Positions 1,091 through 6,609 of a DNA stretch of 19,106 bases are shown one piece after another. Both the position numbers and the translations under genes were made by a program. Source of the DNA: Bacteroidales bacterium (GTDB lineage: Bacteria; Bacteroidota; Bacteroidia; Bacteroidales; UBA932); the NCBI GenBank assembly GCA_017614795.1, contig JAGABD010000072.1, forward strand, positions 1 through 19,106. The letters are read 5' to 3'. A model generated the notes under the pieces. That model made no database searches. It was not told where the DNA came from and saw only the letters and a list, made by a program, of their open reading frames with translations. Each line of letters opens with the position of its first letter. Positions within the stretch are counted from its first letter, which is position 1.

Positions 1091-1468
1091 TTATCTTCCC
1101 GACGGCACGAAGATCGCGCTGCCGCGGGCGAAGTCGATCCGCGCGAGACGCAGATAGATGTAGTCGCCGGGCTTGTAACTGAGTTTGCCGCGTTCGGCGT
1201 ATATGCCCTGACGGTTGCGGAACATCCCCTGCCGCAGCTGTTCCATCGGCACGAAGCCGTAGAGACCGAGTTCTCCGATGTCGACCTGCAGTCCGGCGTT
1301 CACGACCTTGACGATCACGCCTTCGTACAGATTGGCGGCGCCGGCTTCCATCTGCTCCTCCAAATAACGCAGTTTGAGCCGGTCGTTCGCCGCGTAGGGC
1401 AAAGGGCCGTGGCACGTCCCACAAGGGGAGCCTGCCCCGGCATTGCCCGGCCCGAAAGGCCTTCGCAC
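1091..1468 (-). CDS. C-terminal S1-domain fragment of an RNase R/RNase II-type exoribonuclease, 5' truncated
   Basis: The real homology starts near residue 26 of the open frame (ANDRLKLRYLEEQ). This resembles the helix that leads out of the RNB catalytic domain of RNase R (VacB), and is followed by an S1 RNA-binding domain (LYEGVIVKVVNAGLQVDI, GLYGFVPMEQL, YKPGDYIYLRLARIDFARG). The whole catalytic RNB region and the cold-shock domains expected of a family of 600-800 residues are missing. The first 25 codons are not protein homology at all: they are the reverse complement of the repeat at 1390-1461. The frame ends upstream at the same TGA (1478-1480) that terminates the flavoprotein gene. So this is a gene remnant, cut either by a rearrangement at the repeat or by a faulty assembly join. 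Translation from the Met at 1468 is possible but would give only an RNA-binding stub. The DUF2059 gene follows closely downstream. Confidence 0.65.
   Translation of the reverse strand: MRRPFGPGNAGAGSPCGTCHGPLPYAANDRLKLRYLEEQMEAGAANLYEGVIVKVVNAGLQVDIGELGLYGFVPMEQLRQGMFRNRQGIYAERGKLSYKPGDYIYLRLARIDFARGSAIFVPSGR
1390..1461. repeat. Palindromic structured repeat, copy A
   Basis: This stretch matches 3995-4068 in blocks: CCGCGT, one mismatch, then GGGCAAAGGGCCGT; GTCCC[A/G]CAAGGGGAG; and CCGGCATTGCCCG, followed by a CCCG...AGGCC tail. Within it GGGCAA (1397-1402) can pair with TTGCCC (1443-1448), GCCG with CGGC inside that, then GGCA (1411-1414) with TGCC (1433-1436), with CCC-ACAA-GGG at the tip. 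Copy A lies between the end of the flavoprotein gene and the truncated RNase R-type gene, and supplies the false N-terminus of that fragment. No transposase or target duplication is visible beside it. It could be a REP/MITE-like element or a mobile palindromic insert. Confidence 0.75.
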
Positions 1469-1477
1469 GGATGCCCT

Positions 1478-2917
1478 TCATAAAGTGCTGGCGACGGAAA
1501 GGCCGGCGAGGGAGCCGGTGCAGAAGGCGGTCTGGAGGTTGTAGCCGCCGGTGTCGCAGTCGAGGTCGAGAAGTTCGCCGCAGAAATACAGACCCGGCAC
1601 GAGGCGCGATTCGAGCGTCTTGCGAAGGACTTCGTCCAGCGAAACGCCGCCCGCAGTAACCACGGCGCGCTCGTATCCGACATAGCCTTCTATCTTGAAC
1701 TGCCAGTCCTTCAGGCATTTCGCAATCGTAGGCAGGTTCACCCAAACCTTGGTATCGGTTCTGCCGCGTCGCTCCAGCGTGATTATGTCCGGATTGCAGG
1801 CGGTAAAGCCCGGAATGAGGTCCCAGGGCATCAGCTTGCCGAGAAGAATTCGGCATTTCTCCTTTTCGTGCAGTCGCTTGCTGCGGGGGTCGCGGTCTAC
1901 TTCAGCCCAAAGAGCTTTCACGTTGGCTGTAAGTTCATCAAGAGGCACTGCCGGCTTCAGATCCAGCGACAGTTCCACGCGGGAGCCGTTCATCAGGGCC
2001 TTGACGGCCTTGCGGCTCAGTTGGAAGCCGATGGGGCCTTCGATTCCGCCGTCGGTAAAGTCAAGGTCGCCGAACTCGTTGCCGGCCTCCGAGCTCTCGA
2101 TAATCAGGCGCAATCCCACATTCTTCAGTTTCACCCCGTTAAGTTTCTCGCCAAGCTCGCTCAACGGCAGCGAACGCTGGCGGATAAATCGCTGGCTATC
2201 AGCGACTTGAGCCAATCCTTCTGTGCCGTTTCCAGGGTAGAAGGAATCGCTTAAAGTACTGTCGTTCAATGAGTTGGCCGCCAGGGTAATTTTATAGCCG
2301 CGCGGGACCAGGGCAGTGAGCGAAGGAAAAAGCGGGGTGACGTGGTGGCCGAGGGACTCGGCAAAGCGGTAGCCGTCGCCGGTGGAGCCGGTATTCGGGT
2401 AGGACAGCCCTCCGGTAGCGAGAATCAGTCGCCTGCAGGTCCAAACTCCCCCGTTATCGAGCTCGATCCTGAATCCGCCGTCAGCCGCAGCCACCGAAGC
2501 GACCGAAGCCTCCGTTTCTATCTTCACGCCAAGCCCGTTGCAGGCTCGCACGAGTGCATCCACCACGTCGGAGGCGCGGTGCGACGAAGGAAAAGCGCGG
2601 TCTCCCCTCTCCACGACGGTCGGCATCCCGGCGTCTTCGAAGAACTTCAAGCAATCCTCGGGAGAGAAGTTGTAGAAAGCGGGACGCAGGAAATCGGCCT
2701 TGCTTCGGATATGGGCGGAGAATTCGTTCCAGGCCTTTATGTTGCTGAAATTGCAGCGGCCTTTGCCCGTGATCATTATTTTTCTGGCGGGACGGGGCAT
2801 CTTCTCGAGCACCGTAACCTGAGCGGGCGAACCGTCTGCTACGAGCTTAGACGCCGCGGACCAGGCCGCCATCAGGCCGGAGGCCCCTCCACCTATTATA
2901 ATAATGTCGGATTTCAT
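1478..2917 (-). CDS. BaiN/RdsA-family NAD(P)/FAD-dependent oxidoreductase (HI0933 type)
   Basis: 479 residues from the ATG at 2917. The N-terminus MKSDIIIIGGGASGLMAAW is a Rossmann beta-alpha-beta fold with GGGASG at residues 9-14 for FAD. It is followed by the family-typical KMPRPARKIMITGKGRCNFSN block (about residues 38-60), LILATGGLSYPNTGSTGDGYRFAESLGH (about 165-195), and a C-terminal VTAGGVSLDEV...GLYFCGELLDLDCDTGGYNLQTAFCTG that closes the FAD site. Length and motif order match the HI0933/TIGR00275 family, cytosolic flavoproteins of largely unknown substrate; BaiN is the bile-acid reductase namesake, but this does not show bile-acid activity here. An in-frame Met at 2941 would begin inside the SRP RNA and adds residues not expected in the family, so 2917 is preferred. 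There is no promoter between it and the SRP RNA gene immediately upstream. Confidence 0.9.
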   Translation of the reverse strand: MKSDIIIIGGGASGLMAAWSAASKLVADGSPAQVTVLEKMPRPARKIMITGKGRCNFSNIKAWNEFSAHIRSKADFLRPAFYNFSPEDCLKFFEDAGMPTVVERGDRAFPSSHRASDVVDALVRACNGLGVKIETEASVASVAAADGGFRIELDNGGVWTCRRLILATGGLSYPNTGSTGDGYRFAESLGHHVTPLFPSLTALVPRGYKITLAANSLNDSTLSDSFYPGNGTEGLAQVADSQRFIRQRSLPLSELGEKLNGVKLKNVGLRLIIESSEAGNEFGDLDFTDGGIEGPIGFQLSRKAVKALMNGSRVELSLDLKPAVPLDELTANVKALWAEVDRDPRSKRLHEKEKCRILLGKLMPWDLIPGFTACNPDIITLERRGRTDTKVWVNLPTIAKCLKDWQFKIEGYVGYERAVVTAGGVSLDEVLRKTLESRLVPGLYFCGELLDLDCDTGGYNLQTAFCTGSLAGLSVASTL

Positions 2918-2919
2918 AC

Positions 2920-2933
2920 GAAAAATGGGAAAG
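2920..2933 (-). terminator. 3' end of SRP RNA with T-run
   Basis: The 3' arm CTTTCCC of the terminal SRP RNA helix is directly followed on the minus strand by ATTTTT. This could act as an intrinsic terminator using the SRP rod as the hairpin. The flavoprotein start codon is only a few bases further on, so some read-through is needed if no other promoter serves that gene. Confidence 0.4.
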
Positions 2934-3023
2934 CTTAGCACATCGCACCGCTACAACCTCTTACCCTTGCTGCATTCCTGCCCTGGGGGAGTTGGGAGGG
3001 AGCTGGTCGTGTACGACTTTCCC
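2927..3023 (-). ncRNA. ffs: Signal recognition particle RNA (small, 4.5S-like)
   Basis: On the minus strand the Ffh-binding hallmark is present at 2985-2968: CAGG, then GCA-GGAA-TGC (a GGAA tetraloop on a short stem), then AGCA. This is the symmetric/asymmetric internal-loop arrangement of domain IV. The ends pair: GGGAAAG at 3023-3017 with CTTTCCC at 2933-2927, giving a rod of about 97 nt, the normal size for small bacterial SRP RNAs. A TAnnTTTG promoter element lies 4 bp upstream of the 5' G, and a run of five T follows the 3' arm. The RNA binds Ffh to target nascent inner-membrane proteins. The 5' and 3' ends are inferred from pairing and may be off by a few bases. Confidence 0.92.
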
Positions 3024-3027
3024 ACTG

Positions 3028-3056
3028 CAAATATACAAAGATTTTGATAAATGCAA
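3028..3056 (-). promoter_or_regulatory. Bacteroidetes-type promoter of the SRP RNA
   Basis: The minus strand reads TATATTTG (3035-3028), a perfect TAnnTTTG -7 element, with a TTG at 3056-3054, 18 bp further upstream, as a -33 element. The predicted start at about 3023 coincides with the G that opens the SRP RNA terminal helix. Confidence 0.7.
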
Positions 3057-3061
3057 GGCGA

Positions 3062-3535
3062 CTAGATGCTGTCGAAGATGAGCGGCAGGATGTCGTCGAC
3101 TTTGTCGAACTTCCAGATGATGCCGTCTCCAACCATTATGACTGACATCGGATGGCCGTGCTTCGCCTGATACTGCGCCATGACCTGACGGCAGGCTCCG
3201 CAGGGAGTCGCGGGAGATTTTGCGAGACGTCCCATCACTCCGCCGGCCAGCGCGAGGCTTTCCATCGCCTTGTCGGGATATGTGGCTCCGGCGGCGAACA
3301 TCGCGGTGCGCTCGGCGCAGAGGCCCGAGGGGAACGCGGCGTTCTCCTGGTTCGCCCCCTTGACGATCACTCCGTTGCTCAGGCGTACCGCCGCGCCCAC
3401 GTTGAAGTGGGAATACGGGGCGTAGGAACCGCTCATCGCTTCGATGGCGGCCTTTGCAAGTTCGTGGTCCTTGGGTTCGAGTTCGTCGAGGGATTTATAT
3501 TCGTGGAACGAAATTTTTATCTCTTTCTCGGTCAT
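3062..3535 (-). CDS. cdd: Cytidine deaminase
   Basis: 157 residues. This is a zinc-dependent cytidine/deoxycytidine deaminase of pyrimidine salvage, converting cytidine to uridine in the cytosol. The catalytic signature is complete: CAER at residues 73-76 (Cys73 zinc ligand, Glu75 proton shuttle) and PCGACRQV at 111-118 (Cys112 and Cys115 zinc ligands). NVGAAV (45-50) and the substrate-binding GANQENAAFPSGLCAERTA are typical of the homotetrameric CDD type, with three cysteine ligands. An N-terminal extension of about 25 residues precedes the usual core, as is common in Bacteroidetes. The ATG at 3535 lies about 20 bp downstream of a TAnnTTTG element (3563-3556). It is divergent from mnmA, and the SRP RNA lies downstream on the same strand. 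Confidence 0.95.
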   Translation of the reverse strand: MTEKEIKISFHEYKSLDELEPKDHELAKAAIEAMSGSYAPYSHFNVGAAVRLSNGVIVKGANQENAAFPSGLCAERTAMFAAGATYPDKAMESLALAGGVMGRLAKSPATPCGACRQVMAQYQAKHGHPMSVIMVGDGIIWKFDKVDDILPLIFDSI

Positions 3536-3555
3536 AATAGTGTTATTACAGCCCT

Positions 3556-3582
3556 CAAATATACGAATTTTCCTTAAATTTG
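3556..3582. promoter_or_regulatory. Overlapping divergent promoters of cdd and mnmA
   Basis: Minus strand: TATATTTG at 3563-3556, facing cdd. Plus strand: TAAATTTG at 3575-3582, facing mnmA. Both fit TAnnTTTG. Only 11 bp separate them, so the cdd -7 element lies in the spacer of the mnmA promoter and polymerase could hardly bind both at once. Neither has an obvious TTG at -33. The mnmA -7 element ends 6 bp before its ATG. Confidence 0.5.
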
Positions 3583-3588
3583 CGAACT

Positions 3589-5067
3589 ATGAAGATATGC
3601 GTAGGCCTTTCAGGAGGCGTGGACTCCAGCGTCGCCGCCCTGCTTCTCAAACAGCAGGGTTACGATGTCTTCGCGATGTTCATGCAGAACTGGCACGATG
3701 CCGACGCTACGCTTCACGGGGACTGCGAGTGGGAGGAGGACAAGTTCGTAGCCGAGATGGTCGCCCGCAAACTCGAAATCCCTTTCTATTTCATCGACCT
3801 CAGCAAGCAGTACCGCCAGCGCGTCGTGGACTATATGTTTGATGAATATGCCCGCGGACGCACCCCCAATCCCGATGTCCTTTGCAACCGCGAGATCAAG
3901 TTCGACGCCTTCCTGGCCGCCGCCAGGCGCATGGGCGCCGACATGGTTGCGACTGGGCACTACTGCAGGGTGGAGGCTCTTGGCCCTCAGCCCTCCGCGT
4001 TGGGCAAAGGGCCGTCTGGAGTCCCGCAAGGGGAGCTCCAAGCCGGCATTGCCCGTCCCGGAGAGGCCCACGCCGCGGGCCAATCGCCTCTCTACCGCAT
4101 TCTCGAGGGCGTGGATCCGGGCAAGGACCAGAGTTATTTTCTGTGCCAGTTGAGCCAGGAGCAACTGTCGCAGGCGATGTTCCCGATTGGAGGGTTGATG
4201 AAGAGCGAGGTGCGCAGGATAGCCAAGGAGGCGGACCTTCCGTCGGCGGACAAGAAAGATTCGCAGGGAATATGCTTTGTGGGCAAGGTGGACCTTCCGA
4301 CATTCCTGAAGCAGAAGCTCGAAAGCCGGGAAGGCGATGTGATAGAGGTATACGATGCGTTCTATGCAGAGAATCCCCTGTACCAGAAGCAGGTAGAAAT
4401 AGTCAAGAGCCTGCTCAAGGACGGTTACAAGGGCGAAGTCCCTATGATTTCGCATTATATTTCCGAGGACAAGTGCACTCCGGTCGACGACGCCCATCCG
4501 TTCGAAGAAAAAAAGGTTGCGGAGCTGGAAGACGAGGCGCTCGCAACGCTTGCCTCCCCCATCGATTATTCGGGCATTCAATTCGAGACCGAAACATATC
4601 GCAGCGGCCACAAGCACGTTCGCAAAACACGCTGGAAATCAAATCCTTACGGAGTAATCGCGGGCAAGCACGAGGGAGCTCAGTTCTATACCATCGGCCA
4701 GCGGAAGGGCCTGAACATCGGCGGCCACAAGGATTCCATCTTCGTCATTGCAACGGACACCGTTGCCAACCGCATCTATGTAGGCGAAGGGCATACCCAT
4801 AAGGGGCTTTCGCGGCTCTGCCTGCACATTGCGGAGGACGAAATCCACTGGATCCGGCCGGACCTGGAGATAAAGCCGGGCGAAACCCGCCGTTACCGCG
4901 TGAGGATACGCTACCGCCAGCCTCTTCAGGATGCCACCCTGCTGCGCCGCGAAGACGGCCTTTACATATTGTTCGACCAGCCCCAGAGGGGCATCAGCCC
5001 GGGCCAGTTCGCGGTATGGTATGCCACCGACGGCGAGATGCTTGGCAGCGGACCAATACAGAAATAG
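3589..5067 (+). CDS. mnmA: tRNA-specific 2-thiouridylase MnmA with lineage and repeat insertions
   Basis: 492 residues from the ATG at 3589; a TTG at 3580 lies in the promoter and is rejected. MnmA activates U34 of Glu/Gln/Lys tRNAs with ATP and inserts sulfur. Visible are the PP-loop SGGVDSS at residues 8-14, NPDVLCNREIKF with catalytic Cys99, ATGHY, DQSYFLCQLS, KKDSQGICF with the second catalytic Cys229, YTIGQRKGLNIGG, and the C-terminal beta-barrel region (RIRYRQPLQ...GISPGQFAVWY). The family is usually about 360-390 residues; two insertions explain the excess. Residues about 131-165 are encoded largely by the palindromic repeat at 3995-4068. Residues about 255-357 form a long charged insert where E. 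coli has a short loop. The frame stays open through both and all catalytic residues are present, so the enzyme is probably active. The stop abuts the next ATG. Confidence 0.95.
   Translation: MKICVGLSGGVDSSVAALLLKQQGYDVFAMFMQNWHDADATLHGDCEWEEDKFVAEMVARKLEIPFYFIDLSKQYRQRVVDYMFDEYARGRTPNPDVLCNREIKFDAFLAAARRMGADMVATGHYCRVEALGPQPSALGKGPSGVPQGELQAGIARPGEAHAAGQSPLYRILEGVDPGKDQSYFLCQLSQEQLSQAMFPIGGLMKSEVRRIAKEADLPSADKKDSQGICFVGKVDLPTFLKQKLESREGDVIEVYDAFYAENPLYQKQVEIVKSLLKDGYKGEVPMISHYISEDKCTPVDDAHPFEEKKVAELEDEALATLASPIDYSGIQFETETYRSGHKHVRKTRWKSNPYGVIAGKHEGAQFYTIGQRKGLNIGGHKDSIFVIATDTVANRIYVGEGHTHKGLSRLCLHIAEDEIHWIRPDLEIKPGETRRYRVRIRYRQPLQDATLLRREDGLYILFDQPQRGISPGQFAVWYATDGEMLGSGPIQK
3995..4068. repeat. 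Palindromic structured repeat, copy B, inside mnmA
   Basis: Second copy of the element at 1390-1461. GGGCAA (4002-4007) pairs with TTGCCC (4049-4054), GCCG with CGGC, and TGGAG (4017-4021) with CTCCA (4036-4040), with CCC-GCAA-GGG at the tip, a GNRA loop. The central arm differs in sequence from copy A (GGCA/TGCC) but is still self-complementary, which argues for selection on structure. It is translated as part of an extra segment of MnmA rich in Gly, Pro and Ala. Confidence 0.75.
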
Positions 5068-6609
5068 ATGTTCGAGTTTGAAATATGCGTTCCTCTCTCG
5101 CGAGAGCCCAGGCTTCGGGAAATCGAGGCCAAGGCCGCGGGCTGCAAGTGGGTGCTGAAAAAACGCAGCATCGACGCCCGCAAGGAACCCGTCTGGCGCT
5201 ATCGCTACGAAGCCTATGCGCCGGGAGAATATGTCGAGCCGCAACTCCCTGAATATAAAGATGTTGCAAATGCCCAACCAGTTATCGTGGTGGGTGCCGG
5301 CCCGGCCGGAATGTTCGCAGCCCTTAAGCTCCTTTCGCTGGGCGTAAAACCTGTCATTCTCGAGCGTGGAAAGAACGTCCACGAGCGCAAGATCGATATG
5401 GCGAAACTCTCCCGCGAAGGAATCGTGAATCCCGAGTCGAACTACTGTTTCGGCGAAGGCGGCGCGGGCGCGTTTTCGGACGGAAAACTCTATACCCGTT
5501 CTTCCAAACGCGGCGACATAAGCGAAGTGCTGCTGCAGTTGGTAGCGTTCGGCGCATCGAGCGCCATTCTCACCGATGCGCACCCTCATACCGGTTCCGA
5601 CAAACTCCCCACCGTAGTGGAGAACATCCGCAACTGCATTGTCAGCCACGGCGGCGAGTATCATTTCGGGGCGAAGGTGGTCGACATCAAGGGAGAAAAG
5701 GGCGATTTCGAAGTGGTTGCTGCCGACGGCAGGTCCTGGCACGGCGCCAGCGTAATCCTCGCCACAGGCCATTCTGCAAGGGATATTTACGAGATGCTGG
5801 ACCGCAAGGGCGCCGCCCTCGAAGCAAAGGGTTTCGCTCTGGGTGTGCGCGTCGAGCATCCGCAGGAAAAGATAAACTGGTCGCAGTATCACGGGATGTG
5901 GAAACCCGGAATGCCCGCCGCCGAATACTCCTTCGTGGAGCAGCAGGACGGACGCGGCGTGTTCAGTTTCTGCATGTGCCCGGGAGGCATCCTGGTGCCA
6001 TCTTCGACCGAGCCCGGCACTGTCGTGCTGAACGGAATGTCCAACTCCGCCCGCAGCGGCAAGTTCGCCAACGCCGGAGTCGTGGTGCAAATCGAGCCCG
6101 AGGATGTCCCCGGAGACGGTCCTTTCAAACTTCTGGACTGGCAGAGAGACGTGGAGCGCAAGATGTTCGAGTTCTGCGCTTCGGCCCGCGACGCCAAAGA
6201 CGCCCCGAAGGACCTCCCTTCCAACCTTATGGCGGCTCCCGCACAGCGCATGGAGGACTTCTGCCTCGGGCGCATCAGCAAGAAAATGCCCGAAACCAGC
6301 TATTTCCCCGGCGTCATTTCCGCTCCCCTTCACGAACTTCTGCCGCCAATCGTGGCGGACAGGCTCCGCAAAGTGTTTCCGCGGGTAAAAATCCGCAATT
6401 ATTACACCAATGCGGCGCTTCTGCTGGGTGTCGAAAGCAGAACTTCGTCGCCAATTCGCATTCCGCGCGATGATATTTCGCTGGAATATGTATCTTTGCA
6501 AGGTATTTATCCCTGCGGAGAAGGCGCGGGATATTCAGGAGGCATAGTTTCTTCGGCCATCGACGGCATCAGATGCGCGGAAGCGGCCTCACAGGCAATG
6601 AACAAATAA
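5068..6609 (+). CDS. COG2509-type NAD(P)/FAD-dependent dehydrogenase
   Basis: 513 residues. An N-terminal domain of about 70 residues (with RYRYEAY, typical of this family) precedes the FAD-binding Rossmann motif VIVVGAGPAGMFAALKLL, with GAGPAG at residues 76-81 and ERG at the end of beta-2. Further family marks are NYCFGEGGAGAFSDGKLYTR (about 125-145), VILATGHSARDIYEML, FALGVRVEHPQ, and a C-terminal IYPCGEGAGYSGGIVSSAIDGI that contacts the flavin. This is the cytosolic uncharacterised FAD-dependent dehydrogenase family COG2509; the substrate is unknown. The ATG directly follows the mnmA stop codon, so the two are co-transcribed and probably translationally coupled. This does not by itself prove a role in tRNA thiolation. 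Confidence 0.9.
   Translation: MFEFEICVPLSREPRLREIEAKAAGCKWVLKKRSIDARKEPVWRYRYEAYAPGEYVEPQLPEYKDVANAQPVIVVGAGPAGMFAALKLLSLGVKPVILERGKNVHERKIDMAKLSREGIVNPESNYCFGEGGAGAFSDGKLYTRSSKRGDISEVLLQLVAFGASSAILTDAHPHTGSDKLPTVVENIRNCIVSHGGEYHFGAKVVDIKGEKGDFEVVAADGRSWHGASVILATGHSARDIYEMLDRKGAALEAKGFALGVRVEHPQEKINWSQYHGMWKPGMPAAEYSFVEQQDGRGVFSFCMCPGGILVPSSTEPGTVVLNGMSNSARSGKFANAGVVVQIEPEDVPGDGPFKLLDWQRDVERKMFEFCASARDAKDAPKDLPSNLMAAPAQRMEDFCLGRISKKMPETSYFPGVISAPLHELLPPIVADRLRKVFPRVKIRNYYTNAALLLGVESRTSSPIRIPRDDISLEYVSLQGIYPCGEGAGYSGGIVSSAIDGIRCAEAASQAMNK

Follow-up and report, generated by a model that had tools for sequence, protein, structure and literature searches.

The stretch of DNA analysed here (the window: 19,106 nucleotides, GenBank assembly GCA_017614795.1, contig JAGABD010000072.1, a Bacteroidales bacterium) carries two similar palindromic repeats, one inside a tRNA-modification gene and one beside a flavoprotein gene. 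The question is what kind of element this is, and how its arms come to differ between copies while each arm still pairs with its partner. We propose that both repeats are copies of a palindromic DNA element some 70 nt long, non-autonomous and probably selfish, which occurs in a narrow range of Bacteroidales and whose arms are altered and whose orientation is inverted by template switching; we give this reading a probability of roughly 0.7.

Two copies of a palindromic element in the window

The features concerned are listed in Table 1. The two copies share four sequence blocks in the same order, as a sequence-only reading of this DNA had pointed out, and a two-block pattern matches the window exactly twice, with no match in any of 200 dinucleotide shuffles. 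When up to 3 mismatches are allowed, the tip block GTCCCNCAAGGGGAG has 3 matches against 2.44 expected, which is chance level, and only its two exact matches represent the element. Copy A is matched by model R1 at 1388-1455 (69.8 bits), while blastn against other copies gives an extent of 1390-1461 or beyond; copy B is matched at 3993-4061 (79.5 bits). A third, weak R1 match in the window is copy B read in reverse, leaving two real copies. Copy A is outside the HI0933-like gene, beyond its 3' end, whereas copy B is an in-frame part of mnmA, which scores over the cut-offs of both NCBIfam PRK00143 and trmU, and it encodes the peptide PSALGKGPSGVPQGELQAGIARPG; this gene context had been missed in the sequence-only reading.

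Table 1. Features of the window that bear on the palindromic element
Feature	Positions	Strand	Remarks
Copy A, palindromic element	1388..1461	+	outer stem GGGCAA 1397-1402 / TTGCCC 1443-1448
HI0933-like flavoprotein gene, 3' end facing copy A	1478..2941	-	PF03486, E 1.7e-79
mnmA, tRNA 2-thiouridine(34) synthase, 492 aa, host of copy B	3589..5067	+	Pfam tRNA_Me_trans domains
Possible flanking inverted repeat of copy B, left arm TTGGCCCTC	3980..3988	+	8/9 complementary to 4075-4083
Copy B, palindromic element	3993..4068	+	outer stem GGGCAA 4002-4007 / TTGCCC 4049-4054
Possible flanking inverted repeat of copy B, right arm GCGGGCCAA	4075..4083	+	pairs with 3980-3988

Each core had been said to fold as one long imperfect hairpin. 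Copy B does so on either strand (-47.5 and -48.5 kcal/mol, z -3.88 and -3.00), but copy A on the minus strand only (-42.3 kcal/mol, z -1.53), the plus-strand minimum being a branched alternative (-39.2 kcal/mol, z -1.29). The fold of copy A by itself is not clearly above chance, and the claim of compensatory changes therefore cannot stand on these two copies and stands on the family. At curated score Rfam gives no match at either copy; its sole match in the window is the Bacteroidales small SRP RNA (Bacteroidales_small_SRP, 2923-3030, minus strand). The main part of the window can be assigned to Bacteroidales, and the closest genome found (G013, via locus L044, MAG RGIG8152) is 84.7% identical across 1469-5999.

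A dispersed family in Bacteroidales

The exact pattern GGGCAAAGGGCC-(20 to 50)-GGCATTGCCC, searched in a collection of 84,980 genomes, matched 69 stretches, 63 of which were judged real by eye and fall in 15 Bacteroidales/Bacteroidia MAGs; the six judged to be chance come from cyanobacteria (2) and from Cytophagales, Rhodobacterales, Thermoplasmata and a Bacteroidetes scaffold (1 each). Rumen, reticulum or omasum is mentioned in the titles of 6 of the 15 carrier MAGs, and four further carriers have RUG names, which we take to denote a rumen series. A covariance model built on 49 distinct copies finds 1-30 copies per genome across the 15 carriers, counts that are lower bounds with 150 first-look candidates scored per genome. 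Wider but shallow searches, each including the reference genome, found the element in 3 of 61 genomes from G004's genus (83 candidates scored per genome), 1 of 249 from G013's family (20 candidates) and 1 of 296 from G004's phylum (17 candidates), together adding one carrier, G055; with so few first-look candidates scored, these negatives are weak and the copy numbers are lower bounds. The exact pattern had no match among viral contigs (viral_contigs), and plasmids and phages gave none at an E limit of 1e-5.

Copies from the same genome but different genes are slightly more similar to each other than copies differing in both (0.775 vs 0.749), and orthologous copies are more similar still (0.821), neither difference being reached in any of 500 permutations. 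This excess indicates that inheritance and within-genome spread or conversion are both at work. At loci L164, L170, L162, L169 and L160, two to three copies, some of them degenerate, are clustered within about 50-300 bases, and at L200 and L203 of G011 direct repeats with a spacing of about 51 nt adjoin element copies. A search of the literature on in-frame palindromic elements, Bacteroidales and Cryptobacteroides included, gave no account of the family, and it is solely for this reason that we call the element undescribed.

The element lies in frame within ordinary protein genes

For G006, 21 of the 22 model-counted copies were examined and all 21 lie in long open frames, a raw count in which coding density is not factored in. 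Nineteen of the 20 host ORFs match Pfam, among them families of the class I tRNA synthetase, MetK, TruA, PurL, PurM, MutL, MurB, UvrD, AroB, DapF and RsmE type; for one copy the ORF scanned was the second-longest (MurB, 366 aa), the longest (367 aa) being on the opposite strand. Across genomes the copies occupy at least a score of unrelated genes. Hosts over the NCBIfam cut-off are FolC (L004, L025), MurF (L014, L047), IleS (L171), PurL (L177), MnmA (the window) and MetK (L018), the HemW-like gene of L068 staying below it (169 vs 205). The gene of L043, L056, L067 and L199 matches MsrA and has its insert behind the MsrA domain.

The length of the insert can be read from MetK and IleS. Between fixed anchors, MetK genes measure 81-84 nt without and 156 or 159 nt with the insert, and IleS genes 78-84 and 156 nt, a net gain of 72-78 nt. 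None of the loci examined offers a close empty site, the empty MetK and IleS genes being about 20-30% diverged, and the ends of the insert are therefore uncertain by a few bases and a target-site duplication is unreadable. A shorter filled form of 123 nt in the IleS gene of G004 (L219), which lacks the outer parts and the flanking repeat, is perhaps a deletion derivative. At the MetK loop of G024 (L104) there is an unrelated in-frame insert.

In mnmA of the window the insert stands between HYCR and YRI of the protein. A homologue that is 84% identical (P0002) has no insert at this site, and two others (P0015, P0018) carry an element peptide read from the opposite strand. All six frames of the element are in fact read, five of them in family-supported ORFs of G006 and the sixth in FolC of L004; none of the six is closed in 74 of 115 copies, compared with 18% of dinucleotide shuffles. 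Because copies lie within protein genes in both orientations and in all six frames, the RNA element that had been offered as one possible identity finds no support. A structure model of the window MnmA (mean pLDDT 65.3) has low values per ten residues, 28-39, over residues 131-180, the insert region, which faintly hints that the insert may form a disordered loop; values are low elsewhere too (31-39 at 221-240).

The TruA loop that takes the element holds other palindromic inserts in related genomes (L239-L253), for example CGTCATTCCCGGCTTGACCGGGAATC (L251) and GTCATTTCGAGCGAAGTCGAGAAATC (L253), all of them in frame; several unrelated palindromic inserts at a single loop suggest that such loops are hot.

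Covariation of the stems

Covariation was measured on 74 model matches (73 distinct sequences). In this alignment, whose fitting to the model favours structure, 95.7% of stem cells pair versus 76.6% in shuffles, and the covariation score is 0.464 versus 0.132 (sd 0.010), a value equalled in none of 500 shuffles. When partners are slid by 1-3 columns, pairing drops to 31-43%. Both-sided changes occur in 13 of the 15 stem pairs. Alignment A2 consists of exact-pattern copies only, so that its invariant blocks are imposed; A3 is not so limited, but is fitted to the model. Compensatory change is thus borne out at the level of the family. The many dispersed, covarying copies that the sequence-only reading had proposed to look for exist in the 15 carrier MAGs, and the outcomes named as adverse, a repeat limited to two copies or arms that do not pair, were not encountered (63 stretches, 95.7% of cells paired).

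What this covariation means is a separate matter. Stem cells with both-sided changes number 172, against 9 one-sided standard pairs and 47 unpaired cells, these being counts of related sequences and not of events. That one-sided states are so scarce points to a transfer of changes between the arms and not to gradual compensation. It had been argued that pairing kept while sequence changes reveals a fold that is maintained; the stems are indeed kept, but the large excess of both-sided cells weakens the argument, since template switching would produce such an excess even in the absence of selection (PMC8794818, PMC8604942).

Flanking inverted repeats and opposite orientations

Many copies are enclosed by a second, locus-specific inverted repeat (score 9-17). 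Counted as one copy per site it is present at 25 of 45, compared with 2.6% in controls; it is present in 32 of 64 copies and, in a larger set, in 34 of 74, compared with 1.9% and 1.6% when flanks are randomly re-paired. The set of 64 was taken after the chance stretches L009, L026, L059, L061, L064 and L069 and three contig-edge copies had been dropped. At the same threshold, 59 of 115 copies lack it. In the window, the possible repeat around copy B has a score of 7, under the threshold of 9, with arms 4 and 13 nt away, distances similar to those at stronger copies; no flanking inverted repeat was found at copy A, where the score of 5 is at background level.

The arms at MetK are host codons (x-I-R-x and M-P-Y-L), in which 8-11 of 12 bases are complementary in 6 filled genes and 3-9 (mean 5.6) in 16 empty ones, a comparison that sets L104 apart (other insert, 3/12) and in which one empty row (L126) was anchored at the wrong residues. 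At IleS the scores are 10-13 for the filled genes L158, L171 and L198, but 4-8 for fourteen empty genes and 4 for L219, the short filled form. As the filled genes are mutually closest relatives, arms formed before the insert cannot be told from arms formed after it, and the empty MetK and IleS genes are too diverged for the order of the two steps to be read.

Orthologous copies can be oppositely oriented. Among 107 orthologous copy pairs between genomes, which are not independent events, 82 have the same and 25 the opposite orientation, no pair being in both lists. Every one of the 25 opposite pairs, which we group into 13 sites, has one flank or both no more than 12 nt from the same point, and nine of the pairs show offsets that are exactly equal and opposite. 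In FolC (L004 vs L025) the 8-nt margins are 88% and 100% identical on the same side, against a background of 40%, and in IleS (L041 vs L052) 88% and 88%, against 36%. These two sites show the bases between element and arm inverted together with the element, and the outer flanks exchanged, which places the breakpoints within the arms. One margin moves with the element in some pairs of the MsrA-matching gene. The margins of the HemW-like, MetK, MurF and L049/L050 pairs stay and do not move with the element, so that separate insertions are possible there. The FolC pair L004 and L025 further differs in that arms and margins are kept around an inner core of a different subtype, as if it had been replaced. 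All inversions seen are between species.

Proposed mechanism and rival explanations

In the scheme we favour, ordinary protein genes would harbour the element, in loops, in linkers or at their ends, and it would not be removed. With the frame kept and the element tending to be free of stops in six frames, either orientation could be translated into 20-35 extra residues, probably tolerated as a disordered loop, and the element would probably be selfish. Its hairpin and the short locus-specific inverted repeats in the genes would offer arms for a template switch during DNA synthesis. Such switching would copy changes from arm to arm, giving apparent compensatory changes with few intermediates; it would render the flanking host codons complementary; and it would invert the segment in place. 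Covariation with few intermediates, complementary flanks and inversion might then all come from one process. For coding DNA, PMC8604942 reports that arms are homogenised and the spacer is inverted when synthesis switches templates between short inverted repeats, and PMC8794818 reports that template switching yields both-sided changes in hairpins. What we see are the traces to be expected of the process, not the process itself, and it does not explain dispersal to new sites.

Dispersal could be due to a Y1 transposase (RAYT or IS200-type) mobilising a REP/MITE-like element in trans, with pairing selected through binding of the enzyme, an explanation we regard as possible but doubtful. The sequence-only reading had named such a gene as supporting evidence, and PF01797 is indeed found in 14 of the 15 carriers; it is likewise found in 10 of 15 genomes without an element match, and as a marker of carriers a Y1 transposase was rejected as not specific. 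At a distance of about 1 kb from copies there are two Y1-like frames (G002:C69:5896-6075, over the cut-off, and G001:C10:1617-1841, below it), but two near neighbours among many Y1 genes may be chance. The GTAG tag that the accessible text of PMC3733652 gives for RAYT-linked REPs is missing in nearly all copies, the outer bases containing it at two left ends and one right end among 115. An unlikely alternative dispenses with a transposase altogether: through ectopic template switching or conversion, the palindrome would pass copies of itself between hairpins, settle in quasi-palindromic codons of essential genes, have its arms homogenised and flip in place. One locus could then alternate between two unrelated in-frame loop peptides, and the FolC core of a different subtype would be a core replaced by such copying.

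The opposite orientations could instead be separate insertions into the same hot loop, the flanking repeats being target hairpins that existed beforehand. We think this rather unlikely, although it fits the pairs whose margins stay put (HemW-like, MetK, MurF, L049/L050) and the unrelated palindromic inserts in one TruA loop of related genomes; against it stand the FolC and IleS margins inverted with the element at identities well above background, the exactly equal and opposite offsets in 9 of 25 pairs, and the empty IleS genes without such a repeat (4-8 vs 10-13). Selection on a folded RNA or DNA form, as in a regulatory or processing hairpin, would account for stems kept across copies with many pair types, but we hold it to be improbable in view of copies in the middle of the coding regions of unrelated genes, on either strand and in any frame, the missing Rfam match and the scarcity of one-sided intermediates. 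Harm might be expected from an insert within essential enzymes, which would speak for its removal or skipping as an intron, an intein or by translational bypass. A removed insert would not need the frame, and the frame kept in 21 of 21 G006 copies, together with the lengths in multiples of three in MetK and IleS, counts so clearly against removal that we consider it very improbable. An assembly artefact has in its favour that the left 1.39 kb of the window is foreign-looking and joins exactly at copy A; with the same family at orthologous places in 15 MAGs of several projects, we give it hardly any credence.

Relation to known repeats

To our knowledge, in-frame palindromes in essential genes are known mainly from Rickettsiales. 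The present family shows the phenomenon in a different phylum, where orthologous sites, filled as well as empty, are numerous and both orientations and all six frames are in use. Two old questions can thereby be put to the test: by what route such elements spread when no transposase is evident, and whether hairpins with compensatory changes reflect selection on the fold or mere template switching. Caution is also due, as a dispersed hairpin that covaries is not by itself proof of RNA function, and family-specific inserts can mislead the annotation of housekeeping proteins.

Invertons depend on site-specific recombinases acting at recurring sites. Like invertons and intragenic invertons, the segment in FolC and IleS is intragenic and inverted between repeats, with breakpoints in the arms, as judged between genomes; unlike theirs, the arms of the element are specific to each site, which argues against a common recombinase recognition site.

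In the available text of PMC10969869, the rickettsial RPE is a dispersed palindrome of about 150 bp that is inserted in frame into metabolic genes unrelated to each other and is translated. Our element resembles it in lying in frame in unrelated genes (open in 21 of 21 G006 copies, with Pfam matches for 19 of 20 ORFs, and MnmA in the window) and in being palindromic and dispersed within one genome (1-30 copies) with a covarying stem, a likeness of description. It differs from this Rickettsia element, as far as that text describes it, in being found in Bacteroidales/Bacteroidia MAGs, in its size of about 70 nt, in being read in six frames, in its opposite orthologous orientations and in its locus-specific flanking repeats. 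CGTC-tagged REPs are likewise short palindromes with intragenic units and no dedicated transposase, occurring in Bacteroidetes among other phyla, and their tag is common to the RPE of R. conorii (PMC3733652, available part). The element, too, is a short intragenic palindrome without an evident transposase, but neither consensus strand has a 5' CGTC before the stem, CCCGTC standing at the 3' foot of both strands, and its two-part stem is longer than the 8-9 bp of these REPs, with a loop of 4-5 nt, as theirs, in most copies. With the REPs of the GTAG/RAYT type it has in common dispersed single-strand hairpins and Y1 genes in most carriers; it lacks their tag at the hairpin foot (at most 3 of 115 copies) and lies within genes, whereas they are described in the same part of PMC3733652 as lying mostly between genes. 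Owing to a phylum and size unlike those of RPE, and to GTAG and CGTC tags that are absent or unclear, we file the element as neither RPE nor REP.

Other comparisons are partial. MITEs are marked by terminal inverted repeats and a target-site duplication; the element is palindromic throughout, and the loci examined offer no close empty site at which a duplication could be read. Arm homogenisation and spacer inversion recall template-switched inverted repeats (PMC8604942), and perfect inverted repeats within coding genes, with both arms encoding conserved residues, are reported in PMC6649704; in the available parts of these sources, such repeats in coding DNA are not dispersed, unlike the element. 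PARCEL repeats and enterobacterial RU elements are, like it, palindromic or mobile repeats coding within genes, but in the accessible portions of PMC2996958 and PMC2759123 PARCELs form tandem arrays of 25-residue units in ORFs that have no function assigned to them, and RU units are 103-168 bp long and largely intergenic.

The left end of the contig and a second repeat family

Positions 1-1387 of the window have a higher G+C content (0.68 in the first 500 bases) and contain MFS, DUF2059 and S1-domain ORFs. Five related genomes, each searched with 40 first-look candidates, have no listed match to this part. Of the 120 homologues listed for the MFS protein, the best of them 60% identical, those with a label come from Clostridia, Victivallaceae and others, none from Bacteroidales. 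At the place of copy A, G013 has an element that is turned round, and next to it an ORF that is presumably a sodium-proton antiporter gene. The contig may be chimeric, with its join at copy A, or the left part of the window may be foreign; copy A is complete, but its left neighbourhood is not to be trusted.

A second repeat family is represented at 2176-2284 of the window by a unit of about 109 nt with the ends CTGGCGG/CCGCCAG, in frame in the HI0933-like gene. It occurs at at least nine more places in G013, most of them not clearly coding, and at L284 it lies in frame in a FolC-like gene.
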